Below, piece after piece: positions 40,906 to 64,000 of a DNA stretch of 64,000 nucleotides. A program made the translations under genes and the position numbers. The notes beneath the pieces are model-generated. The model worked only from the letters and a program-made list of their open reading frames with translations. It made no database searches and was not told the DNA's origin. Position 1 is the first letter of the stretch; each line of letters opens with the position of its first letter. This DNA is from Phreatobacter sp. (lineage in GTDB: Bacteria; Pseudomonadota; Alphaproteobacteria; Rhizobiales; Phreatobacteraceae): positions 62,001 through 126,000 of the forward strand of contig NZ_JAPZTZ010000015.1 of NCBI RefSeq assembly GCF_027532945.1, read 5' to 3'.

Positions 40906-42222
40906 ATGTCGGGCATGTTCTCGATCCCCCGCCTGCTCTCCTGTCTGACAATCGCCCTCGCGGCCTGCCTTGCCCTCCTCGTCGCTCCCGCTGTGGCGCA
41001 GGAGATGCGCGGCCATGGCGGCCCGGTGCGGGCGCTCGCCGTCGCGCCCGATGGGAGCCTCGCCATTTCCGGCTCCTTCGATTCCTCCGCCATCCTCTGG
41101 GACATCGAGCAGGGCCTCGCTGTCAGCGTGCTGCGCGGCCATGACAGCTCGGTCAATGCAGTGGCGGCCCTCGCCGACGGGAGGTTCGTCACCGCCGGGG
41201 AGGACGGGCGCGTGCTGCTCTGGCGGCCCGGCCGGGCGGAGCCGGAGGCGCGGCCCGTCACCCACGAGGCGCCGGTCGCGGCGCTGGCGATCTCTCCCGA
41301 CCGCCGGAGCCTCGCCACGGCCTCCTGGGACGGCACGGCGCGCATCGTGCCGCTCGCCGGCGGCGAGGCGCGGGTTGCCACCACGCAGCGCGGGCCGCTC
41401 AACGCCGTCGGCTTCACGGCGGACGGGCGCAGCATCGTCACCGGCGGCCATGACGGCGCGCTGCGCATCGTGCCCCTCGACGGCGGCACGGAGCGTGTGG
41501 TCGAGCTCGGCCTGCCGGTGAATGCACTGGCGGTTGCCGGCGATGGCGAGATCGCCGCCGGCCTCGCCGATGGCCGCGTCATCGTCTTCTCGGGCAATGG
41601 CGTGCCGCGCGGCGAGATCCGCGCCGCCGAGACGCCCATCGTCGCGGTGGGGCTGTCGCCGGACGGGACGCGCATCGCCGCGGCCGGCATCCGCGGCTCG
41701 GTCGCCATCATCAACCGGCGGAGCCTTGCCGTGGAGCGGGTGCTGGTCGGTCCCGGGCTGCCGGTCTGGTCCCTCGCCTTCCGGCCGGGGACGGAGGAAC
41801 TGCTGACCGGCGGCGGCGACCGGCTCGTGCGCCGCTGGCTGGCGACGACCGGCGAGCATCTCGGCGCGGTCATCCTGGCGAAGCCGTCCGACGCGCTGAC
41901 GCGGCTTGCCGACCATCCGGGCGCCGAGGTCTTTCGCGCCTGCTCCGCCTGCCACACGCTCGATCCGGATGGCGGCAACCGCGCCGGGCCGACGCTGTAC
42001 GGCGTCATCGGCCGGCGCATCGGCACGGCGGCGGGCTACGACTTTTCGCCGGCGCTGCGCGGCATGGACATCATCTGGACGAAAGAGACCATCGCCCGGC
42101 TCTTCGAGATCGGCCCGACGGCCTACACGCCCGGCACCAAGATGCCGGAGCAGCGGGTGACGGATCCGGAGGATCTCAAGGACCTCGTCGACTTCATCGC
42201 CAAGGCGACCGGGGCCGAGTGA
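40906..42222 (+). CDS. Exported WD40-repeat protein fused to a cytochrome c domain
   Basis: A 438-residue fusion. A signal peptide (cleavage near VAQ, residue 32) is followed by about seven WD40-like blades from residues 34 to 325, visible as repeated GHxxxVxAxAxxxDG and SxDxxAxxW patterns such as LRGHDSSVNAVAALADG. The C-terminal 100 residues are a class I cytochrome c, with heme site C346-SA-C349-H350 and a likely axial Met at M413 in GTKMPEQRV. It should be a periplasmic haem protein on a propeller scaffold. It converges with the polyferredoxin gene of the formate dehydrogenase island and may pass electrons in that system. A second ATG lies three codons in. Confidence 0.88.
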   Translation: MSGMFSIPRLLSCLTIALAACLALLVAPAVAQEMRGHGGPVRALAVAPDGSLAISGSFDSSAILWDIEQGLAVSVLRGHDSSVNAVAALADGRFVTAGEDGRVLLWRPGRAEPEARPVTHEAPVAALAISPDRRSLATASWDGTARIVPLAGGEARVATTQRGPLNAVGFTADGRSIVTGGHDGALRIVPLDGGTERVVELGLPVNALAVAGDGEIAAGLADGRVIVFSGNGVPRGEIRAAETPIVAVGLSPDGTRIAAAGIRGSVAIINRRSLAVERVLVGPGLPVWSLAFRPGTEELLTGGGDRLVRRWLATTGEHLGAVILAKPSDALTRLADHPGAEVFRACSACHTLDPDGGNRAGPTLYGVIGRRIGTAAGYDFSPALRGMDIIWTKETIARLFEIGPTAYTPGTKMPEQRVTDPEDLKDLVDFIAKATGAE

Positions 42223-42228
42223 GCCGGC

Positions 42229-44253
42229 TCAGTTGAGCCCGTCCTTGCCCGCCTTGACCTCGGCCAGATAGTCCTCGGCGGTCCGCACCCGCGGCCGCTC
42301 CGGCGCGCCATAGGGGTCGAAGCTCTCGTTGACGACGCGCTCGACGCGGCAATCCTCGCACATGAACAGGGCCTCGCGGCGCGCCGCATTGGCGCCCGAG
42401 AACATCCAGTGCCCCTCGAGCTTCGAGGCGATGCGCTCGATCGTGGAGCGGGTGCCGAAGGCCTTGTTGCACTGGGTGCAGTGGAAGGGCTCCTCCTCCT
42501 TCACCAGCTTCTTCGGCTCGCGCCAGGCGACGAAGTCGAGCTGGGCGACGAGGTCGATGGCATCCTCCGGGCAGGTCTGTTCGCACAGGCCGCACTGGAC
42601 GCAGAGGCTCTCCGCGAAGCGCAGCATCGGCTTGTCGGGATTGTCCGAGAGGGCGCCGGTCGGGCAGGCGGAGACGCAGGACAGGCAGAGCGTGCAGGCC
42701 TCGACATTGACCTCGGCGTTGCCGAAGGGCGCGCCCTTTTCCAGCGCGATGACGTCGACCGGCGCGGGGGCGGCAGCGTGGAGCTCGAGGAAGGAGAGTT
42801 CGAGCAGGCCGCGCTTGGCGCCCATGGGCAGGAAGCTCGCGGGCTTCGCCGTCGGCGTGCCGGCGAAGGGCACGGCGAGATCCGCGGCCAGCGCATCGGG
42901 ATCGTCCGTCTCGACAAGGCGCAGCACGTCGGCGCCATAGCCGAGCGCGGCGAGGATGGTGCGGGTGGTGGCCAGCGTGCGCTGCAGGCCGAGAATGTCG
43001 TGCTTCGGCTTGGCGCGGGTGAGCACGGCGATGCCGGCAACGCCATAGGCGAAGGCGCCCGCCAGCAGTTCGGGGCCGACCTGCGTCACCTCGTTCACCT
43101 GAAGCGGCAGGACATGGGCAGGCAGGCCGTCGCCGTGGCGGGCGAGCATGTCGATGAGCGGCAGGCCGTGGTCGCCGTCATGAAGGAGCAGCACCGCGCC
43201 GGTGCCGCCCGCCGCCTGGTAGGTGGTGAGCAGCGCGCGCATGCGGCGCATCAGCGCATCGACGGGCGGTAGGGCATAGGCGGCAGCCCCCGTCGGGCAG
43301 GCGGCGGCGCACTGGCCGCAGCCGGCGCAGATGGCCGGGTCGATGGCGACATGGTCGCCGTCGGGGGTGATGGCGCCGGTCGGGCAAAGATCGAGGCAAC
43401 GGGTGCAGCCGGTGATCTTGGAGCGCGAATGGGCGCAGAGCGAGGCGTCGAACTGGACGAAGCGCGGCTTGTCGAAGGTGCCGACGAGGCCCGACGCCTC
43501 GCCGATGAGCCGCTCCACTGCCGCGGGGTCGCGCGGATCGGCGCGCAGGTAGCCGGGGCGGAGCTCGGCGGCGGGGAAAAGCGGCATCCCCCCGGAGAGG
43601 TCGATGACAATGTCGGAGGTCGAGGAGGCGCCGTTGCGAGGCGTCTGCCAGGCATAGGCGCGGCGCGAGGCGGGCGAGGGCAGCGCATAGTCGTCGACCA
43701 TCAACTCGAAGGCGCCGAGATGGCCGCGGGCGACGGAAATCGTGCCCTTCACTACCGGAAAATCAGTGGCGGAGGGCGGCGTAACCGCCCCGGGCCTGGT
43801 CAGCAGCACGGTAACGTCGAGGGTTTCGGAGAGGCGGCGGGCGGCCTCGATGGCGACCTCGTCGCGGCCATAGACCAGCGCGACGCCCTTCGATTCCAGC
43901 GTCACCGCCTGGATCGGCGGCATCTCCTCGGAGGCCGCGGCGAGGAGGGCGGCGGTCTTCGGACCGGCCTCGCGGGCGCCCGTCGACCAGCCCGCCTGCT
44001 CGCGCACATTGGCGAAGGCGAGACGGCCGGCAAAGCCCATGTCCTCGGCGGTCTCGGTGAAGAGCGGGGCTTCTTGGGTGCAGGCGACGAGCACGTCGCC
44101 CTCCTGCGCCAGCACCGCCTTGAAGAAATCGAGTTCCTTGCGGCAGAGCTGGTCGGCGGTGCGCACCTTGGTGCGGCAGGCCTTGGCCACCGTCTCCCCA
44201 TGCAGCGGCATGGTCTCCTCGCAGGAGCAGAGGAATGTGGTGGCTGCCGTCAT
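42229..44253 (-). CDS. Multi-cluster 4Fe-4S ferredoxin-type protein of the formate dehydrogenase region
   Basis: A 674-residue cytoplasmic iron-sulfur protein without membrane segments. Four ferredoxin-like cysteine groups are visible: CTRCLDLCPTG, CAGCGQCAAACPTG, CTLCLSCVSACPTG and CVQCGLCEQTCPED. A C-terminal pair, CTQC and CEDC about 40 residues apart, looks like a zinc or iron ribbon. The N-terminus has FLCSCEETM. The middle 150 residues resemble no domain I can name. It diverges from the BPL/LplA-like gene across a promoter with an inverted repeat. A role in electron transfer to or from formate dehydrogenase is inferred from context. The start is ATG 44253; the longer frame is unconserved. 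Confidence 0.87.
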   Translation of the reverse strand: MTAATTFLCSCEETMPLHGETVAKACRTKVRTADQLCRKELDFFKAVLAQEGDVLVACTQEAPLFTETAEDMGFAGRLAFANVREQAGWSTGAREAGPKTAALLAAASEEMPPIQAVTLESKGVALVYGRDEVAIEAARRLSETLDVTVLLTRPGAVTPPSATDFPVVKGTISVARGHLGAFELMVDDYALPSPASRRAYAWQTPRNGASSTSDIVIDLSGGMPLFPAAELRPGYLRADPRDPAAVERLIGEASGLVGTFDKPRFVQFDASLCAHSRSKITGCTRCLDLCPTGAITPDGDHVAIDPAICAGCGQCAAACPTGAAAYALPPVDALMRRMRALLTTYQAAGGTGAVLLLHDGDHGLPLIDMLARHGDGLPAHVLPLQVNEVTQVGPELLAGAFAYGVAGIAVLTRAKPKHDILGLQRTLATTRTILAALGYGADVLRLVETDDPDALAADLAVPFAGTPTAKPASFLPMGAKRGLLELSFLELHAAAPAPVDVIALEKGAPFGNAEVNVEACTLCLSCVSACPTGALSDNPDKPMLRFAESLCVQCGLCEQTCPEDAIDLVAQLDFVAWREPKKLVKEEEPFHCTQCNKAFGTRSTIERIASKLEGHWMFSGANAARREALFMCEDCRVERVVNESFDPYGAPERPRVRTAEDYLAEVKAGKDGLN

Positions 44254-44301
44254 TTCACTCTCCGACCCGCGGCTCTTCCCGCCGCTTGGGGTCTTCATAT
44301 A

Positions 44302-44316
44302 TTGGAAGCAGTCCAA
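44302..44316. promoter_or_regulatory. Inverted repeat in the divergent promoter of the formate dehydrogenase accessory genes
   Basis: TTGGA-AGCAG-TCCAA is a 15-bp dyad in the middle of the 109-base gap between the polyferredoxin and BPL/LplA-like genes. A TATATT hexamer overlaps its left side at 44298-44303. Its symmetric location suits a regulator controlling both directions, possibly the HTH-TorD or HTH-PBP proteins encoded in the island. Confidence 0.45.
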
Positions 44317-44362
44317 AGAACCAGACCGGCCCGTGATAAGGGTCGCTTCTCCAGAAGGTGCC

Positions 44363-45112
44363 ATGGCCCTCGTCACGCTGAGCACGCCCTCGACCCTCGA
44401 CCTGCCGCCGGGCTTCCGGACGGTGGCCCTGCGCGAATCCGGCGATGCTTTCGCCCATGCCTGCCGAACGGCTGGCGAGGAGGGCGCCGGCACGCTCGTC
44501 TGGGTGCGACGTTTCGACATGGCCGAGTTCGCCGTCGTTCTGGAGCCGGCGGAACCGCTCGCCGAGGCGCGCAAGGCCTTCTTCATGGGCATGGCGGCGA
44601 CGGCGGATGCCATTGCCTCGCTCTGCCCGCCGGAGCGCAGCGTCGGCATCGCCTTCCCCGACACGATCCGCTTCGACGGCGGCCTCGTCGGCGGCGGCCG
44701 TCTCGGTTGGCCGAAGCGCTGCGGCGAGGAGGAGGTGCCGGACTGGCTGGTCTTCTCGGCCTGCGTGCGTGTTTCGTTCGCCGGGCTGATGGAGCCGGGC
44801 AAGGTGCCCAATGCCACCGCCCTCGACGAAGAGGGCTTCGAGGGCGTCGGGCCGGCCATGCTGGTGGAGGCCTTCGCCCGCTTCCTCATGCGCTTCGTCG
44901 ACATCTGGGAGAACGAGGGCCCGGACCGCGTCCTCAAGGACTATGTGAAGCGGCTCGACAAGGAGCGGCCGGGCGACAGCCTTGCGCTCTCCGGGGCCGG
45001 CGACCTCGTCGTCACGCCCGCGGCCGGCGGCTTCGGCCGCACCGTGTCGCTGCTCGACGGACTGAAGGCCGTCGCCTGGCTCGACCGCGACGCCGGAGGG
45101 CCGCGCCTGTGA
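44363..45112 (+). CDS. Biotin/lipoate protein ligase-like protein (BPL_LplA_LipB_2 type, DUF4444)
   Basis: A 249-residue protein with features of the biotin/lipoate A/B ligase fold. The core includes SVGIAFPDTIRFDGGLVGGG near residues 93-112 and WLVFSACVRVSFAG, followed by a C-terminal DUF4444-like helical domain (AMLVEAFARFLMRFVDIWE). The catalytic lysine region of true LplA enzymes is not clearly conserved, so ligase activity is uncertain. It starts the DUF6505-DUF6352-DUF3305-DUF3306 run, all with tiny gaps or overlaps. No lipoyl or biotinyl acceptor protein is encoded nearby. Function in the formate dehydrogenase system is unknown. Confidence 0.8.
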   Translation: MALVTLSTPSTLDLPPGFRTVALRESGDAFAHACRTAGEEGAGTLVWVRRFDMAEFAVVLEPAEPLAEARKAFFMGMAATADAIASLCPPERSVGIAFPDTIRFDGGLVGGGRLGWPKRCGEEEVPDWLVFSACVRVSFAGLMEPGKVPNATALDEEGFEGVGPAMLVEAFARFLMRFVDIWENEGPDRVLKDYVKRLDKERPGDSLALSGAGDLVVTPAAGGFGRTVSLLDGLKAVAWLDRDAGGPRL

Positions 45113-45660
45113 TGATGCTGCGCACCATCCGCCTCGACCCTTCGGACACGTTTGTCTTTCCGGTGGCAGCCGAACCCGGGGAGTGGGCCGTCACCGGCTC
45201 CTTCCTGTTCTGGGGCCGCGAGGTCGCCGCGCTGGCCGGCAAGGAGCGCGCCGCATTCCGCTCCGGCTTTGTCGGCGTCGACTCGCTCGGCTTCTCGACG
45301 CTGGTCGTGTGCCAGCCCATCAAGCCAGAGGAGCGCACGGCGGCCGTCGAGGCGCTCGCCGCGCATCTCGTCGACAGGCTCGGCGCCCCGTCCCTCGATG
45401 CGGCCCGCGCCGCCGCCGAGGAGGAGATCGCCTTTGCCGCATCGCTCGCCGAACACGGTGAGGGCACGCTCGTCGCCCTCCACCGCGGCGAGGACGATGG
45501 CGAGATCCGCGAGCAATACCGCGTGCTGCAGCGGCGCGAGCGCACCGAAGGCGCCGACAGCCTGCACGCCCATGCCCGCGCCTTCACCTTCCACGAGGAG
45601 GTGGACGATATGCCCGAGGAGCGGGTGGACCTGATCGACATGATGGCGACCCGCCGATGA
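45112..45660 (+). CDS. DUF6505 family protein
   Basis: A 182-residue acidic cytoplasmic protein. It opens MMLRTIRLDPSDTFVFPVAA and has GSFLFWGREVAALAGKERAAFRSGF near the middle. The second half is mostly helical with many Glu and Ala. The family is found beside formate dehydrogenase genes and has no known function. Its ATG overlaps the TGA of the upstream gene (TGATG), and its own stop overlaps the next ATG, so it is strictly coupled to both. No membrane segment or metal motif is visible. Confidence 0.75.
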   Translation: MMLRTIRLDPSDTFVFPVAAEPGEWAVTGSFLFWGREVAALAGKERAAFRSGFVGVDSLGFSTLVVCQPIKPEERTAAVEALAAHLVDRLGAPSLDAARAAAEEEIAFAASLAEHGEGTLVALHRGEDDGEIREQYRVLQRRERTEGADSLHAHARAFTFHEEVDDMPEERVDLIDMMATRR

Positions 45661-46697
45661 CCCTCGCGACGCGCACGGTGAAGGAATTCTGGGTGTCCTC
45701 CGGGCACCACATGACCAGCCGCACGGAGGGCGGCGGCCTTGCCGTCACCGACGAGATGATCCTCGCCTATCTGGCGCGCCCGGAACTGGTGCCGCCGCCG
45801 GAGGCCTGCGACGCCGAGCGCGACCTCCACGCGCTGCTCCTCGCCGAGCCGCGCCGGCCGGTGACCGCCGCAATGATCGGCGCCATCGCCGACGAGGATG
45901 CCCGCGAGAACTGGCAGTTCATGATCGGCTTCCGCGACAAGCTCATCGCCCATGGCAGCATCGAGGCGGCCTATCTCGCCATCGTCCGGGCGGGCGCCAA
46001 GGGCATCCCGCCGCTCTTCCTCAACCAGCTCGTGCACCTGATCCTGCGCAATGCGCTGGACGGCTGCGAGGACCCCTTCGTGCTGCGCGCCGCCGAACTC
46101 CTGTTCCGCGCCCAGAAGGGCAGCCTGAAGGACGGCGCGCTGCTGCTCGCCGACCACGAGCTGGTGGAGGAACTGGAGGCCGAGCGGCAGAGCCTCATGA
46201 CCACCTCGCCGCTCGCCGCCATGATGGGCAAGGATGCCACCGCCGAACTCGACGTGATGACCGATGAGACGGCGGAGAGCTACTGGTCGCGCTCGGATGC
46301 TTTCACCATGGTGCTCAATCTCGGCGGCGACCCGCGCTCCCGCGAGGCCCTGTGCCGGGTTCTCGAGACCTGGATCCTCCACATGCTCGGCATCGAGACC
46401 ACCATCGCCGCGGTCGAGCGGGTGGAGGATGCGGACTGGCGCTGGTTCGTCGGCCTCGACGCCGAGGCGACCGCCATCGGCAACCGGCTGTGGCGCGGCG
46501 AGGCCGTGGACCCCGGCGAGCAGAGCCGCATCTGCGGGCTCTTCCGCCTCGATTTCACCGATGCGAGCCGCGTCGATCCGAAGCTCGCGGGCAAGCCGGT
46601 CTATCTCCTCATGGCCCTGACCGAGGACATGGTCCTCCGGATCAAGCCGCAGAACCTCATTGTCGGCCTGCCGCTGGCCGGCCGGCTCGCTGCCTGA
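45657..46697 (+). CDS. DUF6352 family protein
   Basis: A 346-residue soluble, largely helical protein. It opens with TVKEFWVSSGHHMTSRTEGG, continues with LTxxMIxAYLxRPEL-type VTDEMILAYLARPELVPPPE, and ends with YLLMALTEDMVLRIKPQNLI. The SGHH motif near residue 15 could bind metal, but this is speculation. The family is known only as a neighbour of formate dehydrogenase operons. It shares an ATGA overlap with the DUF6505 gene and lies 11 bases before the DUF3305 gene. Function unknown. Confidence 0.75.
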   Translation: MTLATRTVKEFWVSSGHHMTSRTEGGGLAVTDEMILAYLARPELVPPPEACDAERDLHALLLAEPRRPVTAAMIGAIADEDARENWQFMIGFRDKLIAHGSIEAAYLAIVRAGAKGIPPLFLNQLVHLILRNALDGCEDPFVLRAAELLFRAQKGSLKDGALLLADHELVEELEAERQSLMTTSPLAAMMGKDATAELDVMTDETAESYWSRSDAFTMVLNLGGDPRSREALCRVLETWILHMLGIETTIAAVERVEDADWRWFVGLDAEATAIGNRLWRGEAVDPGEQSRICGLFRLDFTDASRVDPKLAGKPVYLLMALTEDMVLRIKPQNLIVGLPLAGRLAA

Positions 46698-46708
46698 CGG
46701 AGGACGCC

Positions 46709-47227
46709 ATGCCCGTTCGCCACCTGACCGTCGGCATCGTCGCGGTGAAGCGCAAGCTCTCCAATCCCTGGGTCGATTTCGAATGGATGCCCGAGGCCGT
46801 TCTGCCGGGCCTGCCGGAGGTTCCGGCAGGATCGCGGATCGGCGCCGAGGGCAGCGTCGAGCGCTGGTATCTCGGCCCCGCCGAACTCACCTTCCATTCC
46901 GGCGAGACGTCCCATTACCGCGACAACCTCGCCTCGGGACGCCCCGCGGTCTGGGTGGCGCTGCGCGAAGGCCAGGACGGCAGCTGGGGCGTCGCCGGCG
47001 CGACCATCGACCCCTATGAGGGCGAGGCCTTCGTCGACGTGGTCACCGACAAGGTCGAGGCCGTGCCGATGCCGCACGAGGTGGCCGTGGAACTCCAGGC
47101 CTTCGTCGACGCCCACCATGTCGACCAGCCCTTCTTCAAGCGCAAGCGCGACCGCAAGGACCCGAATGCCGAGCCGGATTTCGGCATCGGCCATCCGGCG
47201 CTCACCGAGCGGGGGAAGCGGTCATGA
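46709..47227 (+). CDS. DUF3305 family protein
   Basis: A 172-residue soluble protein. Conserved-looking segments are HLTVGIVAVKRKLSNPWVDF at the start, WYLGPAELTFHSGETSHYRDNL and PAVWVALREGQDG in the middle, and PYEGEAFVDVV before a basic tail (FFKRKRDRKD). The DUF3305 family has no assigned function and is usually next to DUF3306. A GGAGGA ribosome site precedes ATG 46709, and the stop overlaps the DUF3306 ATG. Confidence 0.82.
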   Translation: MPVRHLTVGIVAVKRKLSNPWVDFEWMPEAVLPGLPEVPAGSRIGAEGSVERWYLGPAELTFHSGETSHYRDNLASGRPAVWVALREGQDGSWGVAGATIDPYEGEAFVDVVTDKVEAVPMPHEVAVELQAFVDAHHVDQPFFKRKRDRKDPNAEPDFGIGHPALTERGKRS

Positions 47228-47895
47228 GACGCGCCGTCCCGCCGCCGCAGGGCGAAGGCTTCCTCTCCCGATGGTCGCGGCTGAAGCGCGAGCCGGAACC
47301 CGCCCCCGTCGAGCCGGCGCCGCCGGCCGCAACCGAGCCCGCCTTGCCCGAGGGCCGGACACTCGACGACCTCATCGCCGAACTGCCGAAGGTCGAGGAC
47401 CTCGTGCCCGGCCAGAGCGTCTCCGCCTTCATGCAGCCCTGGGTGCCGACCCCACTGCGCAACGCGGCGCTCCAGCGGATGTGGCTGCTCGACCCGGCGA
47501 TCCGCGACTATGTCAGCCCGGCGCTCGACTATGCCTATGACTACAACACGCCGGGCGCCGCACCGGGATTCGGGCCGATCGAGACGACCAAGGACATGGT
47601 CCGGGAGGTCGCCGAGCTGTTCGATCGCGCCCTGTCGCGGGTGGATGCCGGGAATGATCCACAGTCTGCTAACGACATAGTGTCGCAAGCCGAGAGCACG
47701 GACGATGCTGCGTCGCAGCATGTTGTCCCTGTCTCTGCGGACGCTGAAGCGGTAGAAACACGCAATCCCCCTGCAGAATGCGAAGACGCCACGGCGCCGT
47801 CCGGGCCCGCCGTTGCTGCAGCGCACAATGATTCACGATCCGATAAGCACTTGGCACCGCCCAAGCGGCGCAATGGCGGGGCTTTGCCGGCTTGA
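47224..47895 (+). CDS. DUF3306 family protein
   Basis: A 223-residue protein. The N-terminal GEGFLSRWSRLKREPEPAP and a Pro/Ala-rich linker precede the conserved core, which has LDDLIAELPKVEDLVPGQSV, FMQPWVPTPLRNAALQRMW and YDYNTPGAAPGFGPIE. The last 70 residues are low-complexity and polar. DUF3306 is found with DUF3305 in formate dehydrogenase loci, and its function is unknown. The GEGFLSRWSRLK motif at the start is characteristic of the family. It is the last gene of the accessory run; the next gene starts about 130 bases later behind a possible new promoter. Confidence 0.82.
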   Translation: MRRAVPPPQGEGFLSRWSRLKREPEPAPVEPAPPAATEPALPEGRTLDDLIAELPKVEDLVPGQSVSAFMQPWVPTPLRNAALQRMWLLDPAIRDYVSPALDYAYDYNTPGAAPGFGPIETTKDMVREVAELFDRALSRVDAGNDPQSANDIVSQAESTDDAASQHVVPVSADAEAVETRNPPAECEDATAPSGPAVAAAHNDSRSDKHLAPPKRRNGGALPA

Positions 47896-47916
47896 AAGTC
47901 TCTTTCCCTGCTTGCC

Positions 47917-47944
47917 TTGCCGGGTCATAGCTTGTACCTATTCT
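47917..47944 (+). promoter_or_regulatory. Possible promoter before the HTH-TorD gene
   Basis: TTGCCG at 47917-47922 and TATTCT at 47939-47944, 16 bases apart, form a weak promoter candidate. The local sequence is less GC-rich than its flanks. Transcription starting near 47950 would leave a leader of about 70 bases before the GTG at 48024 and would make the ATG at 47952 leaderless. Confidence 0.3.
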
Positions 47945-48023
47945 AAAGCAAATGAGGGTCGGCCTATGGGCTGCCAAGTGCCGGAACAGGCACCGCCCCA
48001 TTGAGAGGAAAGCAGTCGCAATC

Positions 48024-48842: not shown

Positions 48843-48873
48843 GCGTCGGGGAGAAGATTGGAGGACGGGACCC

Positions 48874-49095
48874 ATGTCCAGCGCCAAAGACCAAGAGAAC
48901 GCCACTGTGACGGCTCGCCGTGACTTCCTGAAAGCCATGGCCGGCACCTCGGCTGCCGCAGCCGCTGTCGTGGTCGGCGCCGATGCTGCCGAAGCCCAGA
49001 CGGCCGGCCGCGAGAACCGGAACGAGCGCACGAAGGCCCGCTATCAGGCCAATTCGGCGAATGTCCAGGCTTTCTACCGCACCAATCGCTACTGA
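48874..49095 (+). CDS. Small twin-arginine-signal protein of the formate dehydrogenase operon
   Basis: A 73-residue protein that is mostly a Tat signal. The twin arginines are in VTARRDFLKAMAG, followed by a hydrophobic Ala/Val stretch to about residue 42 and a charged 30-residue tail ending in VQAFYRTNRY. Similar small Tat proteins sit just before the large subunit in FDH3-like loci, and related FdhX-type proteins occur elsewhere. A GGAGG site precedes the ATG. It may assist export or be a small subunit. It is 14 bases before the large-subunit gene. Confidence 0.8.
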   Translation: MSSAKDQENATVTARRDFLKAMAGTSAAAAAVVVGADAAEAQTAGRENRNERTKARYQANSANVQAFYRTNRY

Positions 49096-49109
49096 GAGAG
49101 CGCGCCCCC

Positions 49110-55740: not shown

Positions 55741-55744
55741 AGCT

Positions 55745-56371: not shown

Positions 56372-56376
56372 GGGCG

Positions 56377-57249: not shown

Positions 57250-57330
57250 GGCACCGGCGGTCGCGGGAACGGGGCCGGTCAAATAGCACGGCGCCGGGGC
57301 GCCGTGCCATGGTCGCGTCATCGGGTAGCG

Positions 57331-58134
57331 TCACTCGGCCGGCAGCCCCGGCGCCACGAAACCGTGACGGGCGAGGATGCGCTGGCCGGCCGGCGACAGC
57401 ACGAAGAGGGCGAAGCGGTGCGCCGCGGTCGAGGCGCCGTTCACCACCGTCACGCCATAGTCCGCGCCGACTGCCAGCGCCTCCGGCAGCGCCACCATGC
57501 GGATGCCGGGCTGCTCGCGGGCGATGGGGCCGCCATTGGTGCAATAGGCGAGGAAGAGGTCAGCCTGACCCGCCGCGATGACGTGGCCATAGGCGTTCCG
57601 CCCCTCCGGCACCGGTGCGCTGGACGGCCCGCCGGTGAGCTGCACGGCTTTCGCCTCCAGCGCCGCACGGGCACCCGGGCGCACCGCCTCGGCACGGGCG
57701 AAGACCTGATAGGCATAGTCGCCGGCCGGATCCGCCCGCGGCGTCGAGGTGCCGAGCTTGACCGCCGGATCGAGCATCCGGTCGAGGACGGTCGCCGGCG
57801 TGACCTCCAGACCCGGCCGCACGAAGGCGCAGAGCGCGTTGCGGGCGAAGAGCACGACCGGCCCCGCCTTGCCGGCCTGCGCCAGCGCCTGCGGATGGGT
57901 CATGTTGGCGGAGGCGAAGACCTCCGCCTTCTCGCCGCCGGCAATGGCGTCGCGGATGAGGCCGGAGGGCCGGTAGACCTGCGTCACCGGGGGCCCGCCG
58001 GCGGCGGTGAAGGCGGCGCTGACCTCGGTCATGGCGCCGCGCAGGCTCCCCGCAGCGTGGAGCAGCACCGGCTCCTGCGCCACGGCGCCGCCCGTGGCGG
58101 CCATCATCAGGCCCGCCGCAAGAATGGCCCGCAT
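57331..58134 (-). CDS. modA: Molybdate ABC transporter substrate-binding protein (ModA-like)
   Basis: A 267-residue periplasmic binding protein. A signal peptide ends near AVAQ (residue 20), then LLHAAGSLRGAMTEVSAAF, with the oxyanion-contacting serine region typical of ModA. EVFASANMTHPQAL, LCAFVRPGLEVTPATVLDRM and GTSTPRADPAGDYAYQVF follow. It should bind molybdate or tungstate. No modB or modC genes lie beside it. It follows tupA by a single base and may use the TupBC channel. A last conserved segment is LFVLSPAGQRILARHGF. Confidence 0.87.
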   Translation of the reverse strand: MRAILAAGLMMAATGGAVAQEPVLLHAAGSLRGAMTEVSAAFTAAGGPPVTQVYRPSGLIRDAIAGGEKAEVFASANMTHPQALAQAGKAGPVVLFARNALCAFVRPGLEVTPATVLDRMLDPAVKLGTSTPRADPAGDYAYQVFARAEAVRPGARAALEAKAVQLTGGPSSAPVPEGRNAYGHVIAAGQADLFLAYCTNGGPIAREQPGIRMVALPEALAVGADYGVTVVNGASTAAHRFALFVLSPAGQRILARHGFVAPGLPAE

Positions 58135-58135
58135 C

Positions 58136-59014
58136 TCACGCCCCCGAATCGGAGGCGTTGGCGAAGAACAGCTGCTGGCCGTTGATCTGGTAGTCGGCGA
58201 TGGCCTTCTGGCCCTCGGGGCTGACGATCCAGTCGATGAAGGCCTGGCCGTCGGCCCTCTTCACATGCGGGTGGCGCTCGGGGTTCACCAGCATGATGCC
58301 GTACTGGTTGAACAGGCGCCGGTCGCCCTCGACGAGGATGTCGAGGTCGCCGCGGTTGCGGAAGGAAAGCCAGGTCGCGCGATCGGAGAGGACGTAGCCG
58401 TTCATGCCCGAAGCCGTGTTGAGCGCCGCGCCCATGCCCTGGCCGATCTCGCGGTACCAGCTGCCGCGGGTGGCGGCGAGGTCGATGCCGGCGGCCGTCC
58501 AGAGCGCCAGTTCGGCCTGGTGGGTGCCGGAGCGGTCGCCGCGCGAGACGAAGGGCGTCGCCTTCGTCTGGATGGCGCGCAGGGCCGCGGCGATGTCGCG
58601 CGAGCCCTTGATGCCGGCGGGATCGGCCTTGGGGCCGATCAGCACGAAGTCATTGTACATGACCGGGCGACGCGGGCCGCCATGGCCCTCGGCGACGAAG
58701 CGCTCCTCCGCCGCGCGGGCATGGACGAAGACGACGTCGGCATCGCCGCGGCGGCCGGTGTCGAGCGCCTGGCCGGTGCCCTGGCTGATGACGCGCACCT
58801 CGATGCCGGTCTTGGCCCTGAACAGCGGCAGGATGTGGTTGAACAGGCCGGAATCCACCGTCGAGGTGGTGGAAGCGACCGTGATGAACCGCGTGCCGGC
58901 GGCGGCGGTGGCGGGCGCCGCGGGACGGGCGTCCTGGGCGAGAGCCACCCCGCCGAAGGCGAGGAGGGAGGCGGTGGCGGCGATGAGATGGCGCCGGGTC
59001 GGCAAGGTCGTCAT
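58136..59014 (-). CDS. tupA: Tungstate ABC transporter substrate-binding protein (TupA-like)
   Basis: A 292-residue binding protein. The N-terminus, TRRHLIAATASLLAFGGVAL, carries a twin-arginine-like signal. The mature part opens with FITVASTTSTVDSGLFNHIL, the TTS motif that contacts the oxyanion in TupA. It continues with VISQGTGQALDTGRRGDADVV, VMYNDFVLIGPKADPAGI and FVSRGDRSGTHQAELALW. This is the tungstate-selective pattern, distinct from ModA. The ATG at 59014 is preferred over a frame extended by 17 residues. It is downstream of tupC. Confidence 0.9.
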   Translation of the reverse strand: MTTLPTRRHLIAATASLLAFGGVALAQDARPAAPATAAAGTRFITVASTTSTVDSGLFNHILPLFRAKTGIEVRVISQGTGQALDTGRRGDADVVFVHARAAEERFVAEGHGGPRRPVMYNDFVLIGPKADPAGIKGSRDIAAALRAIQTKATPFVSRGDRSGTHQAELALWTAAGIDLAATRGSWYREIGQGMGAALNTASGMNGYVLSDRATWLSFRNRGDLDILVEGDRRLFNQYGIMLVNPERHPHVKRADGQAFIDWIVSPEGQKAIADYQINGQQLFFANASDSGA

Positions 59015-59054
59015 GGTCGTCTCCGTTGAGGGGATTGGGAGGTGGGGTGCCGGC

Positions 59055-59792
59055 TCACCAGACAAGGTCGCCGGCGATGAAGGCGCGGGCTTCGGCGCTT
59101 GCCGGCCCTGAGAAGAAGGTCTCCGCCGGCGCGTCCTCGACGAGACGGCCGCGATGAAGGAAGAGCACGCGATCGGCGAGGCGGCGGGCCTGGCCCATGT
59201 CGTGGGTCGCCATGACCAGCGTCACGCCCTCGGCCTTGAGGGCGAGGATCATCTGCTCGATCTGGCGGGTGGCGCCGGGGTCGAGCTGTGAGGTCGGCTC
59301 GTCGAGAAAGAGGATCTCCGGCCGGAGCGCCCAGGCGCGCGCGATCGCAAGGCGCTGCTGCTCGCCCCCCGACATGAGGCGGGCGGGGCGGTCGGCCTTG
59401 TCGGTGAGGCCGAAGCGGTCGAGGGCCTCGCGGGCGCGGCTGCGGCGCTCGCTCCAGCCGGCTCCGGCGGCGGCGAGGGCATGCTCGACATTGGCCAGCG
59501 CCGAGCGGCGCAGCATGACCGGCTTCTGGAAGACCATGGCATGGCGCTTGTGCCCCGCCAGCGTGCCCTCCCCCGCCGCCCAGGCGATGGCGCCGGCGCT
59601 GGGGGCGATGAGGCCGTGGCAAAGGCGCAGGGTCAGCGACTTGCCGGAGCCGTTGGGCCCGATGATTACGGTGAGCCCGCCGCGCGGGATGGTGAAGCCG
59701 ATGCCGTCGACGAGGCGCTTGCCCCCGGCCTCGAAGGTGAGATCGGAGACGGCGAGCGGCAGGACGGAGGTGGTCTCGCGCATGGCCGTCAT
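59055..59792 (-). CDS. tupC: Tungstate ABC transporter ATP-binding protein (TupC-like)
   Basis: A 245-residue ABC ATPase. Walker A is GPNGSGKSLTLRL near residue 44, the signature is LMSGGEQQRLAIARAWAL, Walker B is ILFLDEPTSQLDP, and the switch histidine is in MATHDMGQARRLADRV. It powers oxyanion import through the TupB permease, with which it shares an ATGA overlap. It is a short ATPase without the extra C-terminal Mop domain of ModC, which supports a Tup rather than a Mod assignment. Confidence 0.92.
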   Translation of the reverse strand: MTAMRETTSVLPLAVSDLTFEAGGKRLVDGIGFTIPRGGLTVIIGPNGSGKSLTLRLCHGLIAPSAGAIAWAAGEGTLAGHKRHAMVFQKPVMLRRSALANVEHALAAAGAGWSERRSRAREALDRFGLTDKADRPARLMSGGEQQRLAIARAWALRPEILFLDEPTSQLDPGATRQIEQMILALKAEGVTLVMATHDMGQARRLADRVLFLHRGRLVEDAPAETFFSGPASAEARAFIAGDLVW

Positions 59793-60502
59793 CCCGCGAA
59801 CCGCGCGCCGACGCGGCTCGCCGCATAGGTGACGGCATTGATGCCAAGGGTCAGCAGGATGAGGACGATGCCGAGGCCGAGGGCCAGCGGCAGGTCGCCC
59901 TTGGACGTCTCCAGCGCGATGGCGGTGGTCATGGTGCGCGTGTAGCCGGCGATATTGCCGCCGACGATGAGCACGGCGCCGACCTCGGCGCTGGCCCGGC
60001 CGAAGCCGGCGAGGATGGCGGTGGCGAGCGCGAAGCGGCCGTCCCAGAGCAGGGTCGGGATGGCGCGGAGCCCCGTCAGGCCGAGGGAGGCGAGATGCTC
60101 GCGGTACTCGCCGTGCAGGTCCTCGACCAGCTGCCGGGTGATGGCGATGACAATGGGCAGGACGAGGATCGCCTGGGCGCAGACCATCGCGGTCGGCGTG
60201 AACAGGAGGCCGAGGGGCCCGAGCGGACCGGAACGCGACAGCAGCAGGAAGACGAGGAGGCCGGCCACGACCGGCGGCAGGCCCATCAGCGCGTTGACGA
60301 GGACGATGACCGCGCCACGGCCGGGAAAGCGCGACAGCGCCAGCAGCGCGCCGACGGGCAGGCCGATCAGCGCCGCCACGGCGACGGCCGTCAGCGTCAC
60401 CGCCAGCGACAGCCGGACGATGGCGAGGAAGGCCGGATCGGCGCCGAGGATCAGCGCGAAGGCGGCGGCAAAGGACTGGGCGATGTCCACGTCGGGAGGC
60501 AC
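59789..60502 (-). CDS. tupB: Tungstate ABC transporter permease (TupB-like)
   Basis: A 237-residue inner-membrane permease with five or six helices, such as LSLAVTLTAVAVAALIGLPVG and VIVLVNALMGLPPVVAGLLV. The EYREHLASLGLTG coupling segment contacts the ATPase. Its helices resemble TupB/WtpB permeases more than ModB. It is the first gene of tupB-tupC-tupA-modA-fdhD-mobA on the minus strand. Its promoter must lie in the 82-base gap that it shares with the divergent HTH-PBP regulator gene. Confidence 0.92.
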   Translation of the reverse strand: MPPDVDIAQSFAAAFALILGADPAFLAIVRLSLAVTLTAVAVAALIGLPVGALLALSRFPGRGAVIVLVNALMGLPPVVAGLLVFLLLSRSGPLGPLGLLFTPTAMVCAQAILVLPIVIAITRQLVEDLHGEYREHLASLGLTGLRAIPTLLWDGRFALATAILAGFGRASAEVGAVLIVGGNIAGYTRTMTTAIALETSKGDLPLALGLGIVLILLTLGINAVTYAASRVGARFAG

Positions 60503-60545
60503 TCGCTGCGCAAAAAGTTGCCCAATCTACGGTTTTTCCCTAATG

Positions 60546-60558
60546 CAGATCAAATCTG
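60546..60558. promoter_or_regulatory. Candidate operator between tupB and the divergent regulator
   Basis: CAGAT-CAA-ATCTG is a perfect 5-bp dyad in the 82-base gap between divergent tupB and the HTH-PBP gene. A further ATCTGTGCAG follows at 60561-60570. TGCAG occurs three times in 60544-60590. The position suits a regulator controlling both directions; the adjacent regulator is the obvious candidate. Confidence 0.5.
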
Positions 60559-60584
60559 GAATCTGTGCAGAGAAATGCTGCCTT

Positions 60585-61475
60585 ATGCAGGACGATCTCT
60601 ATCTGACCACCGAAGAGGCTGCGGCCTATCTCCGGCTGAAGGAGCGCAAGCTCTATGAGCTGGTGGCCGACGGCGCGATCCCCTGCTCCAAGGTGACGGG
60701 CAAGTGGCTGTTCCCCCGCGCCGCGCTCGACCGCTGGGTGGCCGCGGGCCTTGCCCGGCCCGCCGGCTTCGTCGCCGAGGCCCCCCCGCCCATTGTCGGC
60801 GGCAGTCACGATCCGCTGCTCGAATGGGCGCTGCGCCAGTCCGGCTCGGGCCTCGCGCTGCTCACCGAGGGCTCGGAGGCGGGCCTCGACCGGCTCGAGC
60901 GCAACGAGGTCGTCGCGGCCGGCATCCACCTGCATGGCGCGGGCGACGACGAGGCCGCCAATGCCGAGGCGGTGGCGGCGCGGTCCGGCCTGCATGACGC
61001 GGTGGTGCTCGGCTTCGCGCGGCGCGAACAGGGCTTCCTCGTCGCGGCGGGCAATCCGCTGGCCCTCGGCTCGCTGGGGGATGTCGCGGCCCGTGCGGCG
61101 CGGATCGGGCTCAGGCCTTCCGGCGCCGGCGCGCAGCTGCTGCTGGAGGCGATCGCCGCCCGCGCCGACATTCCGCTCGACCGTCTGAAACGGGCGCCCG
61201 CCCCCTATCCCACCGGGCCGGATCTGGCGGTCGCCATCCGCGCCGGCGAGATCGATTGCGGCATCGCCACGCGCGCCGTCGCCGATCTCAACGGCCTCGG
61301 CTTCATGCCGCTCACCTGGGAGCGCTTCGACCTGGTGGTGCGGCGGCGCAGCTATTTCGAGCCGGCTTTCCAGAGGCTCGCCGCCTTCTGGGCGCTGCCG
61401 GCCTTCGCGGCGCGGGCGGAGGCTCTCAGCGGTTACGATGTCGCGGAGGCCGGAGCCGTGCGGCTCAACCGGTGA
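60585..61475 (+). CDS. Transcriptional regulator: excisionase-like HTH fused to a PBP-like domain
   Basis: A 296-residue protein. The N-terminal 60 residues are an excisionase/MerR-like winged helix (LYLTTEEAAAYLRLKERKLY, then VTGKWLFPRAALDRWVAAG). Residues about 85-290 form a periplasmic-binding-protein-like (PBP_like, cytoplasmic) domain with ALLTEGSEAGLDRLERNEVV, GIHLHGAGDDEAANAEAVAA and GFLVAAGNPLALGSLGDVAA. Such domains sense oxyanions or cofactor intermediates. It is divergent from tupB and is probably its regulator, acting in place of ModE. It is followed 31 bases on by the MoeA-like pair. Confidence 0.87.
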   Translation: MQDDLYLTTEEAAAYLRLKERKLYELVADGAIPCSKVTGKWLFPRAALDRWVAAGLARPAGFVAEAPPPIVGGSHDPLLEWALRQSGSGLALLTEGSEAGLDRLERNEVVAAGIHLHGAGDDEAANAEAVAARSGLHDAVVLGFARREQGFLVAAGNPLALGSLGDVAARAARIGLRPSGAGAQLLLEAIAARADIPLDRLKRAPAPYPTGPDLAVAIRAGEIDCGIATRAVADLNGLGFMPLTWERFDLVVRRRSYFEPAFQRLAAFWALPAFAARAEALSGYDVAEAGAVRLNR

Positions 61476-61506
61476 CGGGCTCCCTTCGCGGGCCTATATG
61501 GGGCCG

Positions 61507-62532
61507 ATGACAAGCCGCCCCCTCTCCCCGCTCGCTGACGCGCGCACCCGCCTGCTGGCGGGCCGGGATGCGGTCGCGCCGGTGACGCTGCCGCCTGGCC
61601 AGGCGCTGGGTTTGGCCGCGGCGGAGACGGTCCGAGCCCCCCATGCGCTGCCGCCGACGGCCGTTGCGTTGCGCCCCGGCGTCGCGGTGGCGAGCGCCGA
61701 CCTCGTCGGGGCAACGCCGCAGGCCCCTGCCCTGCTGCCGGTCGCCCCCCCGCATGTCCTTATCGGCGCGGCGCTGCCGGCCGATGCCGATGCCGTCCTG
61801 CCGGCCGATGCGGTGGCGATGAGCGGGCCCTTCGCCGAGATCGGCCAGTCCGCCTATCCCGGCGAGAACGCCCGCAAGGCCGGCGGCGATCTGTCGGCCG
61901 GGGCGGTGATCGTCGCTGCGGGCGGAACCGTGACGGCCGAGGTGGCGCTGGCGCTCGCCTGCGCGGGCATCGCGGAGGTCGCGGTGCGCCGGCCCGCCAT
62001 CCGCATAGACGCTGCTGCGGCACCCGAAGCCGCCTTCCTGGCCCGCATCCTGGCGGAGGCCGGCTGTGCGGTGGTGGAGGGCGCCGCCGACCTCGTCATC
62101 ACGCTGGCGGCCGATGTCGCCGCGGCGACGCACCCCGACGCCATCCTCGGCCTTGCGCTCCAGCCCGGCCGCGACAGCGCCCTCGACCTGTCCGGCCCGA
62201 CGCCGCGCCTCGTCGTGGCGCCGCGCTTCGACGGCCTCGTCGCCGTCCTCCAAGGCCTCGTCCTGCCGCTGGTGGCCGTTCTTGCCGGCCGCCGGCCGAA
62301 CAGCATCGAACGGCCGCTCACCGCCAAGGTCGCCTCCCATGTGGGGATGACCGATCTCGTCCTGCTCGCCGCCGAGCCTCAGGGCTGGCGCCCCATCGCC
62401 ACCGGCCAGGCGACGCTCGCCGCGCTTCTCGCCGCCGATGCGGTGGCGCTCATTGCACCGGACAGCGAGGGCCTGCCCGCCGGCGCGCCGCTGGCCGCGA
62501 CCCCTCTTCGGGAGCCTTTCGAACCACGATGA
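61507..62532 (+). CDS. Degenerate MoeA-like molybdopterin-binding protein
   Basis: A 341-residue protein related to the MoeA fold by general layout (LPPGQALGLAAAETVRAPHA, then GENARKAGGDLSAGAVIVAA). It ends with a C-terminal GLALQPGRDSALDLSG segment. The MoeA active-site signatures DGYAV and STGDEL are missing; the matching places read VALRPGVAVASA and RIDAAAAPEAA. It probably binds molybdopterin or acts as a scaffold but does not catalyse metal insertion. ATG 61498, three codons upstream, could also serve. Its stop overlaps the next ATG (ATGA), so it is coupled to the MoeA-PBP gene. Confidence 0.78.
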   Translation: MTSRPLSPLADARTRLLAGRDAVAPVTLPPGQALGLAAAETVRAPHALPPTAVALRPGVAVASADLVGATPQAPALLPVAPPHVLIGAALPADADAVLPADAVAMSGPFAEIGQSAYPGENARKAGGDLSAGAVIVAAGGTVTAEVALALACAGIAEVAVRRPAIRIDAAAAPEAAFLARILAEAGCAVVEGAADLVITLAADVAAATHPDAILGLALQPGRDSALDLSGPTPRLVVAPRFDGLVAVLQGLVLPLVAVLAGRRPNSIERPLTAKVASHVGMTDLVLLAAEPQGWRPIATGQATLAALLAADAVALIAPDSEGLPAGAPLAATPLREPFEPR

Positions 62533-64000
62533 CCTCCTCAGCCCTCGTCCAGGACCAGTTCCTGAAAGTCCTCTCCCGCGAGGAGGCCATCGCCCGCTTC
62601 CGCGGCGCGCTGACGCTCCGCCCGCTCGGGGCCGAGAGCGTGCCGCTCGCCGGTCTTGTCGGGCGGGTGCTGGCGGAGACGGTGGCCGCCCCCGTCGATG
62701 CGCCGCCTTTCGACCGCTCGGTGGTGGACGGCTTCGCGGTGCGCGCCGGCGATGTCGCCGGCGCCAGCGAGGACAGCCCGGCTGTGCTGGGGCTCACGCC
62801 TGAGACCATCGCCTGCGGGACAGAACCGCGCCTGCCGGTCCTTGCCGCCCATGCGACGCCCATCGCCACGGGCGGGCCGATCCCGCGCGGCGCCGATGCC
62901 GTGGTGATGATCGAGCACACGCGCGTCGAGGACGGCCGGCTCCTGGTCCTGCGCGCCTCGGCGCCGGGCCAGAACATCGCCTTCGCCGGCTCGGACATTG
63001 CCCGCGGCGAGACCCTGCTGCGGCGGGGTACGCTCCTCGGCTCGCGCGAGGTCGGCATGCTCGCCGCCGTGGGCGCCGCGGAGGCGACAGTCTGGCGCAA
63101 GCCGCGCGTCGCGGTGATCTCCACCGGCGACGAACTGGTTGCGCCGGGCGAGGCGCTGCGGCCCGCCGCCATCTATGATTCCAACGGCCCCATCGTCGCC
63201 GCGGCGCTGGAGGAGAATGGCTGCGCACCGGTCCGATACGGCGCCATCCCCGATGTGGAGAGCGCGCTCGCCGCCGCGATCGCCGGGGCCCATGCCACCT
63301 GCGATGCCGTCATCCTCTCCGGCGGCACGTCGAAGGGCGCGGGGGACCTCACCTACAAGATGGTGGAGAGCCTCGGCTCACCCGGCATCATCGCCCATGG
63401 CGTGGCGCTCAAACCCGGCAAACCGCTCTGCCTCGCCGTCTGCGAGGGCAAGCCGGTCGTGATCCTGCCGGGCTTCCCGACCTCGGCCATGTTCACCTTC
63501 CACGACATCGTCGCGCCCGTCCTGCGCATCCTCGCCGGCCTGCCCGAGCGGGCGGAGATCGGCGTGCCGGCGCGGGTGCCGACCCGCATCCCCTCCGATC
63601 TCGGTCGCACCGAATTCGTCATGGTGGCGCTGGCGGAAGGGCCGGAGGGCCGCGTCGCCCACCCCGTGGGCAAGGGCTCGGGGGCTGTCACCGCCTTCGC
63701 CCAGGCCGACGGCTTCCTCACCATCGACGCGCTGAGCGACGCCCTGCCGGCCGGCACCGAGACGGAGGTGACGCTGTTCGCCCCGCATATCGCCGCGCCG
63801 TCGCTCACCATCATGGGCAGCCATTGCGTCGGCCTCGATGCGGTGATCGACCGCCTGTCCGACCGCGGCCTCACGGCCCGCTCGCTGGCGCTCGGCAGCC
63901 TCGGCGGCCTTGCGGCGCTGAAGCGCGGCGAGTGCGACATCGCGCCGATCCACCTGCTCGACCCCAAGAGCGGCGCCTACAACACGCCCTTCCTCGGCGA
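62529..64000 (+). CDS. MoeA fused to a C-terminal PBP-like domain, cut by the window edge
   Basis: At least 490 residues, open at the right edge. Residues about 1-415 are a full MoeA, with PPFDRSVVDGFAVRAGD, ISTGDELVAPGEALRPAAIY, LSGGTSKGAGDLTYKM, LKPGKPLCLAV and VVILPGFPTSAMFTF. From about residue 430 a PBP-like domain starts (LTIMGSHCVGLDAVIDRLSD, then LGGLAALKRGECDIAPIHL), the same type of domain as in the regulator at 60585. Such fusions are known in archaea and some bacteria. The PBP part may select or sense the metal oxyanion. The start overlaps the stop of the degenerate MoeA gene. Stop codon not seen. Confidence 0.9.
   Translation, partial: MTSSALVQDQFLKVLSREEAIARFRGALTLRPLGAESVPLAGLVGRVLAETVAAPVDAPPFDRSVVDGFAVRAGDVAGASEDSPAVLGLTPETIACGTEPRLPVLAAHATPIATGGPIPRGADAVVMIEHTRVEDGRLLVLRASAPGQNIAFAGSDIARGETLLRRGTLLGSREVGMLAAVGAAEATVWRKPRVAVISTGDELVAPGEALRPAAIYDSNGPIVAAALEENGCAPVRYGAIPDVESALAAAIAGAHATCDAVILSGGTSKGAGDLTYKMVESLGSPGIIAHGVALKPGKPLCLAVCEGKPVVILPGFPTSAMFTFHDIVAPVLRILAGLPERAEIGVPARVPTRIPSDLGRTEFVMVALAEGPEGRVAHPVGKGSGAVTAFAQADGFLTIDALSDALPAGTETEVTLFAPHIAAPSLTIMGSHCVGLDAVIDRLSDRGLTARSLALGSLGGLAALKRGECDIAPIHLLDPKSGAYNTPFLG

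Follow-up and report, generated by a model that had tools for sequence, protein, structure and literature searches.

A predicted tungsten formate dehydrogenase of Phreatobacter, encoded with supply and assembly genes and with a chaperone that may regulate its own operon

Which metal does an exported formate dehydrogenase (FDH) use, and how might its synthesis be matched to the supply of its cofactor? These questions are raised by a locus in a stretch of 64,000 nucleotides from Phreatobacter sp. (Alphaproteobacteria, Rhizobiales; assembly GCF_027532945.1, contig NZ_JAPZTZ010000015.1, positions 62,001 to 126,000 of the forward strand), which is called the window here. The locus is a block of 23 genes around an FDH of the FDH3 type and extends from window position 40906 to 64457, with its last 457 bases past the window end. 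We propose, at a probability of about 0.72, that the block encodes a tungsten FDH3 with its supply and assembly genes and with a chaperone that regulates its own operon through a palindrome. The palindrome, the operon torD-tat-fdhABC, and the hairpin that follows it are as follows (window coordinates).

47927 to 47941: putative operator (ATAG-N7-CTAT) for the chaperone-repressor fusion, with no second copy in the 64-kb window
48024 to 48842, plus strand: fusion of a Cro/YdaS helix-turn-helix domain (PF15943) and a TorD/DmsD-type chaperone (PF02613), with a GTG start
48874 to 49095, plus strand: small twin-arginine translocation (Tat)-target protein of FDH regions (TIGR02811 below cut-off, E 1e-7)
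49110 to 52061, plus strand: FDH3 alpha (FdhA), Cys type, with a twin-arginine-like N-terminus (from the translation; PDB 9VAP, 1216 bits)
52078 to 52674, plus strand: FDH3 beta (NF038355 equivalog, 333 bits against a cut-off of 240)
52763 to 53779, plus strand: FDH gamma, cytochrome b subunit (TIGR01583, 159 bits against a cut-off of 116)
53802 to 53827, plus strand: terminator-like hairpin with an 11-pair stem and a T-rich tail, directly 3' of FdhC

As judged from sequence, a bis-molybdopterin guanine dinucleotide-type catalytic subunit with a Cys ligand and a cytochrome b gamma subunit identify the enzyme as FDH3; its twin-arginine motif was read by eye.

TorD-type chaperones bind the Tat signal and the apo-form of their enzyme. 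The chaperone of this operon carries, in addition, a putative DNA-binding domain: a Cro/YdaS domain (PF15943, 54 bits against a cut-off of 30) precedes the TorD domain (PF02613, 112 bits), its recognition helix is intact, and Q29, P30, S33, and W35 do not vary across the 12 rows of an alignment. An AlphaFold2 model built from 12 sequences (mean predicted local distance difference test score, 78.6; the linker and residues 155 to 175 are of low confidence) is consistent with both assignments. In the model, the C-terminal part resembles DmsD and YcdY, which are among the top fold matches, and the N-terminal part resembles Xfaso1 Cro (39% identity). The most likely start is the GTG at 48024; the ATG at 47952 was rejected as the start because the frame shifts at that place in a 92% identical relative (G132).

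The full-length fusion is present in 18 of the 83 genomes of our order sample (described below) with an FDH-type TorD, a total that counts matches at E<=1e-25 only. Named genomes yielded 585 relatives on scanning, and the comparison was limited to the 80 best of them. In each of the 80 the match begins within the first 14 residues, and FdhA lies directly downstream of the fusion (80/80). They belong to Phreatobacter, Bosea, Salinarimonas, Bradyrhizobium, Afipia, Pseudolabrys, Nitrobacter, Chelativorans, and other genera, the nearest being loci of Phreatobacter with 82% identity. In a tree of 29 sequences of the TorD part, the fused or unfused state changes twice, and a single origin of the fusion is neither demonstrated nor rejected (p-AU, 0.19). 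The FDH3 chaperone of genome G112 (L030) falls among the fusions on a long branch, with only residues 72 to 293 matching; loss of its helix-turn-helix domain is possible.

In an alignment of the eight genus copies, ATAG-N7-CTAT lies in a conserved block upstream of the fusion gene. In a first count with a limit of 300 nt, it was present in 62 of 75 loci from named genomes and in 17 of 18 from the sample, and elsewhere in 4 copies in 597 kb; Bosea-type loci without it have ATAA-N7-TTAT. For a closer comparison of site and protein, 89 loci were chosen from 94 by the anchor motif of the recognition helix. Those dropped are L251, L266, L267, and L271, which have no anchor motif, and L256, which lies at a contig end. 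The genus loci L013, L015, L016, and L017 are outside the 94, and some named loci were kept although they seem to come from genomes that are also in the sample (L196 from G101, L197 from G160). One of the two palindromes stands upstream in 85 of the 89 loci, and the type of site follows the recognition-helix residue. Loci with a QPS helix (76) have 74 sites of the ATAG type and none of the ATAA type; those with a QPA helix (11) have 10 of the ATAA type and none of the ATAG type; one of the two QPT loci has the ATAG type. Thus, between Ser and Ala helices no cross-over occurs in the 89 loci.

The same two sites emerge from a blind search of 4352 four-base palindromes. ATAG-N7-CTAT ranks first in the Ser-type loci (74/76, with the runner-up at 21) and ATAA-N7-TTAT first in the Ala-type loci (10/11), while elsewhere in the fusion loci the two occur in 5 and 2 copies, respectively, in 647 kb. 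Upstream of unfused TorD genes from 34 genomes, neither of two control sets contains a palindrome (0/17 and 0/20; the set of 17 includes three that come from a genome already represented). The spacer is free, with 61 different 7-base spacers in 75 sites of the ATAG type, and the distance from site end to start codon is 48 to 126 nt (median, 85). In the window the site ends 82 nt before the GTG start, and it is therefore predicted to control torD-tat-fdhABC rather than the accessory genes upstream. Residue and operator each change three times on the tree. One locus, L272, combines a hybrid ATAG-N7-TTAT site with an Ala-type QPA helix and is possibly an evolutionary intermediate.

The question of the metal is addressed by the genes that follow the operon, which encode late steps of cofactor assembly and the import of metal.

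53878 to 54468, plus strand: MobB (PF03205)
54472 to 55740, plus strand: MoeA with an IKPGR pocket (Arg291; PF03453/PF00994/PF03454), of tungsten type by the criterion given in the available part of PMC13197769
55745 to 56371, minus strand: MobA (PF12804)
56377 to 57249, minus strand: FdhD (PF02634), for which the genome yielded no second copy
57331 to 58134, minus strand: ModA-type binding protein (NF002917 over cut-off)
58136 to 59014, minus strand: TupA, tungstate-binding protein (NF041772, 223 bits, below the cut-off of 400)
59055 to 59792, minus strand: TupC, ATPase (PF00005)
59789 to 60502, minus strand: TupB, permease (NF041773, 161 bits, best equivalog match, below the cut-off of 320)
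60585 to 61475, plus strand: regulator with HTH_17 and PBP_like domains (PF12728, PF12727), divergent from tupBCA
61507 to 62532, plus strand: degenerate MoeA (MoeA-prime; PF03453 alone, 55 bits; alignment shows no catalytic motifs)
62529 to 64000 and on to 64457, plus strand: MoeA fused to PBP_like (MoeA-PBP), 642 aa (full protein over the NF011068 cut-off)

TupA and TupB fall below their NCBIfam cut-offs (223/400 and 161/320 bits), and the Tup label accordingly reflects best model and linkage. Between tupB and the divergent regulator (60503 to 60584), we observed a GGAAT-N3-TGCA-like box that recurs in the genus and in some other families, a candidate operator of the HTH_17-PBP regulator.

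Co-occurrence was counted in 219 genomes of the order, 78 of which are FDH3 positive (FDH3 beta over the NF038355 cut-off) and 141 FDH3 negative, a class blurred by incomplete genomes. TupA (112 genomes after removal of the weak matches in G150 and G154) is present in all 78 FDH3-positive genomes and in 34 of the 141 FDH3-negative ones. The same genomes were classed for other FDHs (TIGR01591) and for the AOR family (PF01314) by best score only, so that a second enzyme may hide behind a better-scoring one; these classes, like the linkage counts given below, rest on match lists copied by hand. FDH3-positive genomes without an over-cut-off TIGR01591 FDH and without AOR all have TupA (11/11). Among FDH3-negative genomes, TupA occurs in 2 of 73 with an FdsA-like FDH and no AOR, in 4 of 38 with neither enzyme, in 18 of 19 that have an FDH of middle score (this group of 19 includes 7 with AOR), and in 17 of 18 with AOR. 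A phylum-wide sample of 219 genomes has TupA in all 26 FDH3-positive members, 16 of them outside the order, and strong TupA matches in 5 of the 193 others (8 at E<=0.001). The link between FDH3 and TupA is strict in both of these Pseudomonadota samples and predicts tungsten for FDH3. Taken with the structural match and the MoeA residue described below, it indicates that the FDH of the block very probably uses tungsten, and "tungsten FDH3 island" is the best label for the block. In its own genome, no AOR (PF01314) and no FDH over the TIGR01591 cut-off were found.

The closest solved structure to FDH3 alpha is PDB 9VAP (1216 bits over residues 27 to 982, with the Cys aligned). This is Shewanella oneidensis FdhAB, for which the available part of PMC13397495 reports a Cys-W site and oxygen tolerance. 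When three mid-scoring FDHs were compared with the PDB, two best matched the tungsten enzyme 7VW6 and one (L187) matched FdsA, and the class could not be treated as purely FDH1-like; one protein of the FdsA class matches FdsA structures. On the supply side, TupBCA or ModABC is reported to be required for active FDH1 in E. coli (PMC13396061, as far as its available text goes). FDH operons of C. necator are described in PMC11540253.

The MoeA of the block, with KPGR at residues 288 to 291 and an LPGNPVA motif, shows both marks of the MoeA1 type, Arg291 and Ala for Ser in PGNPV. The Ala is shared by the second MoeA of the genome, so the Arg alone discriminates. Arg291 is present in all 18 island-type MoeA proteins read from fetched stretches, and Lys occupies the position in all 17 MoeA-PBP proteins and in the genome's second MoeA. 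According to the available part of PMC13197769, MoeA1 of Methylorubrum extorquens, which has Arg291, is tungstate selective; deletion of moeA1, mobB, or fdhD ended tungsten incorporation and deletion of moeA3 or moeA5 did not, and the tungsten branch there consists of MoeA1, MobB, and FdhD. By locus order, moeA3 and moeA5 would correspond to MoeA-PBP and the degenerate MoeA. MoeA-PBP has already been tied to TupA, with 86% co-occurrence (PMC11733289, available part). MoeA-prime lacks SGG.S.G..D, KPG.P, and the PGNP of domain III, which are partly kept in some relatives, and most of 14 aligned relatives share a C-terminal stretch resembling L.RKI.S.VG. It is possibly a pseudo-enzyme partner of MoeA-PBP.

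Taken together, a supply and control scheme can be outlined. Tungstate would be imported by TupBCA, and tungsten would be inserted into the pterin by the Arg291-type MoeA with MobB; MobA would add guanosine monophosphate, and FdhD would sulfurate and deliver the cofactor to a membrane-attached, periplasmic, tungsten-using FDH3. The Tat-exported catalytic subunit would be guarded by the TorD-type chaperone, whose Cro-type domain is predicted to bind ATAG-N7-CTAT ahead of torD-tat-fdhABC. We lean slightly toward the view that this chaperone is a gene switch for its own client, in which the TorD domain senses cofactor-less FdhA and the Cro domain sets transcription of the operon. In the resulting feedback loop, the free chaperone would repress and the chaperone engaged with an unfinished catalytic subunit would release the operator, or the reverse. 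If occupancy by apo-FdhA alters the Cro domain, transcription would track the balance of apo-enzyme and cofactor, and the cell would make the enzyme in step with the supply of cofactor (tungsten), with no need of a metal-sensing domain. The reverse sign, in which the apo-FdhA-loaded chaperone represses and shuts the operon when tungsten cofactor is short, is a tentative alternative but one to be taken seriously: a repressor that senses unfinished enzyme would fit a metal-limited cofactor, the data leave the sign free, and nothing speaks directly against it.

The observations that weigh against our proposal concern the metal and the operator, and each set bears on a rival explanation. With regard to the metal, FDH3 may be a molybdenum or metal-promiscuous enzyme, with TupBCA serving another enzyme. 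Tungsten enzymes of the FDH1 type and AOR are common in FDH3 genomes, and FDH3 is isolated from them in only 11 of the 78; 7 of these 11 come from a single genus, and G089 (84%) and G114 (71%) are incomplete genomes. Furthermore, a ModA gene lies inside the block, the genome itself has two more enzymes of the dimethyl sulfoxide reductase family (C19 and C12) that TupA could serve, and L187, one of the three mid-class FDHs examined, is nearer to FdsA than to the tungsten enzyme. M. extorquens grown on molybdate is also reported to retain, without MoeA1, FDH activity from enzymes other than FDH1 (PMC13197769), FDH3 possibly among them. The tungsten content, like the DNA binding, is a computational prediction. 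However, TupA is retained in all 11 of the isolated genomes, FDH3 and TupA are neighbors in 31 of the 78, and 9VAP, the closest solved structure, is reported to have a Cys-W site; a molybdenum or promiscuous FDH3 is therefore unlikely, and we retain tungsten as its predicted metal.

With regard to the operator, the palindrome may belong to another regulator, the fused helix-turn-helix domain being a relic. Three fusions with QPS or QPT helices (L230, L264, and L270) lack both palindromes, L272 has half of each, the 89 loci were selected by helix motif and four fusion loci lack it, and the two independent residue/operator pairs on supported branches agree but are too few for a test. Moreover, genomes with an unfused TorD manage without this regulator. 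Against a relic, the site accompanies the fusion and is absent from all 37 unfused loci (34 genomes), the four helix-turn-helix residues are invariant in the 12-row alignment, and site type and recognition residue do not cross over. We consider the relic explanation quite improbable and keep to the chaperone as the protein that would act at this site.

A further question is whether the block behaves as one unit, as the initial annotation had held in describing a self-contained module, with joint gain and loss of its genes as the proposed check. Synteny was surveyed by tblastn with 21 block proteins against 40 fetched stretches, which were chosen by hand and are no random sample. Four sub-blocks tend to stay together: (a) the polyferredoxin to FdhABC, (b) MobB-MoeA and MobA-FdhD, (c) TupBCA with the regulator, and (d) the degenerate MoeA with MoeA-PBP. 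Within the genus the block is an unbroken run in six of eight genomes (the MoeA-PBP end lies outside the G207 stretch, and only its start is in those of G132 and G160). It is in two pieces in G184, where (c) and (d) sit 4.35 Mb from the FDH core on the same contig, and in three in G065, where (c) and (d) are at two further places. ModA is found in four of the eight genus loci, whereas a search of the stretches retrieved for G019, G132, G184, and G065 revealed none. In G035, a second regulator and a second TupA (L148), with TupBC absent from the stretch, stand beside the degenerate MoeA, MoeA-PBP, FdhD-MobA, and MobB-MoeA.

Across the order, at most 35 kb separates FDH3 beta from TupA in 31 of the 78 FDH3 genomes (6 in the genus and 25 of the 70 outside it, where the linkage recurs in other gene orders, e.g., in G058, G117, G193, and G106). 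The two are more distant on one contig in 10 and occupy separate contigs in 37, of which many are draft genomes. For FDH3 and TupA, co-presence is thus tighter than linkage. FDH-type TorD is likewise present in all 78 and also in five genomes without an over-cut-off FDH3 (G018, G026, G057, G072, and G144; the FDH3 beta of G072 is truncated). The regulator, after removal of weak matches, is present in 75 of the 219 genomes, 56 of the 78 with FDH3 and 19 of the 141 without. The sub-blocks are portable yet repeatedly brought together, and their linkage is not fixed.

The core of the initial annotation, a respiratory FDH3 accompanied by its own genes for assembly and metal supply, is supported. 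Its single module stands for the six genus genomes with one run and breaks down in G184 and G065, and linkage of FDH3 with TupA is seen in 31 of the 78 FDH3 genomes, the other 47 having these two genes apart or on other contigs. Joint gain and loss agrees with TupA and TorD (78/78 each) but not with the regulator, no ortholog of which was detected in 22 of the 78. Self-containment likewise describes the assembly and supply genes, but no moa gene is among the 23, ModA is at half of the genus loci, and of the four MoeA_N domains in the genome three are inside the block, the second MoeA lying elsewhere. Nor are the accessory genes confined to FDH3 genomes, the regulator being present in 19 and TupA in 34 genomes without an over-cut-off FDH3. 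An indivisible unit gained or lost whole, favored by the run in six of eight genus genomes and by linkage in 25 of 70 genomes outside the genus, is very unlikely; the splits in G184 and G065, the 47 of 78 genomes with FDH3 and TupA apart or on other contigs, and the regulator and TupA in genomes without an FDH3 match lead us to reject it in its strict form.

The remaining genes of the block lie upstream of the operon.

40906 to 42222, plus strand: WD40 propeller with a C-terminal cytochrome c (PF00400, PF00034; CSACH motif seen in the translation)
42229 to 44253, minus strand: 4Fe-4S polyferredoxin-like protein (Fer4 families)
44363 to 45112, plus strand: biotin/lipoate A/B protein ligase-like (PF16917, 186 bits)
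45112 to 45660, plus strand: DUF6505 protein (PF20115, 185 bits)
45657 to 46697, plus strand: DUF6352 protein (PF19879, 200 bits)
46709 to 47227, plus strand: DUF3305 protein (PF11749)
47224 to 47895, plus strand: DUF3306 protein (PF11748)

The polyferredoxin-like gene adjoins the FDH core in many relatives, and orthologs of the WD40-cytochrome c also adjoin FDH3 in other families. The ligase-like protein and DUF6505 (44363 to 45660) precede the accessory genes of the FDH region. All FDH-block genes named in the initial annotation were detected, at the place given there, by Pfam and NCBIfam profile searches. Likewise, the gene overlaps it had noted are present (45112, 45657 to 45660, 47224 to 47227, 59789 to 59792, and 62529 to 62532), as is the terminator after the structural genes, whose 11-pair stem is the longest among eight hairpins in 44100 to 62600 (5.7 +/- 2.3 expected from shuffles). 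The ligase-like gene, DUF6505, DUF6352, DUF3305, DUF3306, and the Cro/YdaS fusion of the chaperone are additions to it. The block ends with the stop codon of MoeA-PBP at window-equivalent 64457, and the genes beyond are amidase-like and argininosuccinate synthase-like, judged from translations alone. Elsewhere in the window (33970 to 37835, plus strand), three open reading frames, each of 389 codons with the stop, are possibly tandem paralogs, judged by length alone.

Tungsten FDHs, MoeA1-MobB-Tup clusters, MoeA-PBP with TupA, and TorD chaperones are already known. In a literature search of open-licence papers, we found neither a TorD-DNA-binding fusion with a matching operator nor an FDH3-TupA rule. 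Our analysis makes testable the metal of the widespread cytochrome-linked FDH3, which bears on formate use and on CO2-reduction biotechnology. The matching of exported metal-enzyme synthesis to cofactor supply likewise becomes testable, through the chaperone-repressor, its 15-bp site, and its recognition residue, with Bradyrhizobium, Bosea, and Phreatobacter as hosts.

Among known systems, S. oneidensis FdhAB has a homologous FdhA over residues 27 to 982 with the Cys aligned, and its beta subunit is reported to have four clusters (PMC13397495, available part); the block described here adds a cytochrome b subunit, the WD40-cytochrome c, the chaperone-repressor, and the supply genes. The M. extorquens moeA1-mobB-tupBCA locus with FdhD has the same late-step genes and the MoeA Arg291, and by locus number its MoeA5, MoeA3, MobB, and MoeA1 appear to follow the gene order of MoeA-prime, MoeA-PBP, MobB, and MoeA in L154 and L157. 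However, the branch there serves an NAD-linked FDH1 (PMC13197769, available part), whereas here no FDH other than FDH3 was found apart from relatives below the cut-off, and FdhD and MobA are inside the block. The association of MoeA-PBP with TupA and its proposed tungsten role (PMC11733289) recur here, with a paired degenerate MoeA as a difference from the available part of that report. The chaperone shares fold and sequence family of its C-terminal domain with the redox enzyme maturation proteins TorD, DmsD, and YcdY, and the predicted fold of its N-terminal domain (39% identity) with Xylella Xfaso1 Cro (PDB 3bd1) and YdaS. Unlike the former, it has an N-terminal Cro/YdaS domain and a matching palindrome, and unlike in the latter, this domain is joined to a chaperone and encoded within an enzyme operon.

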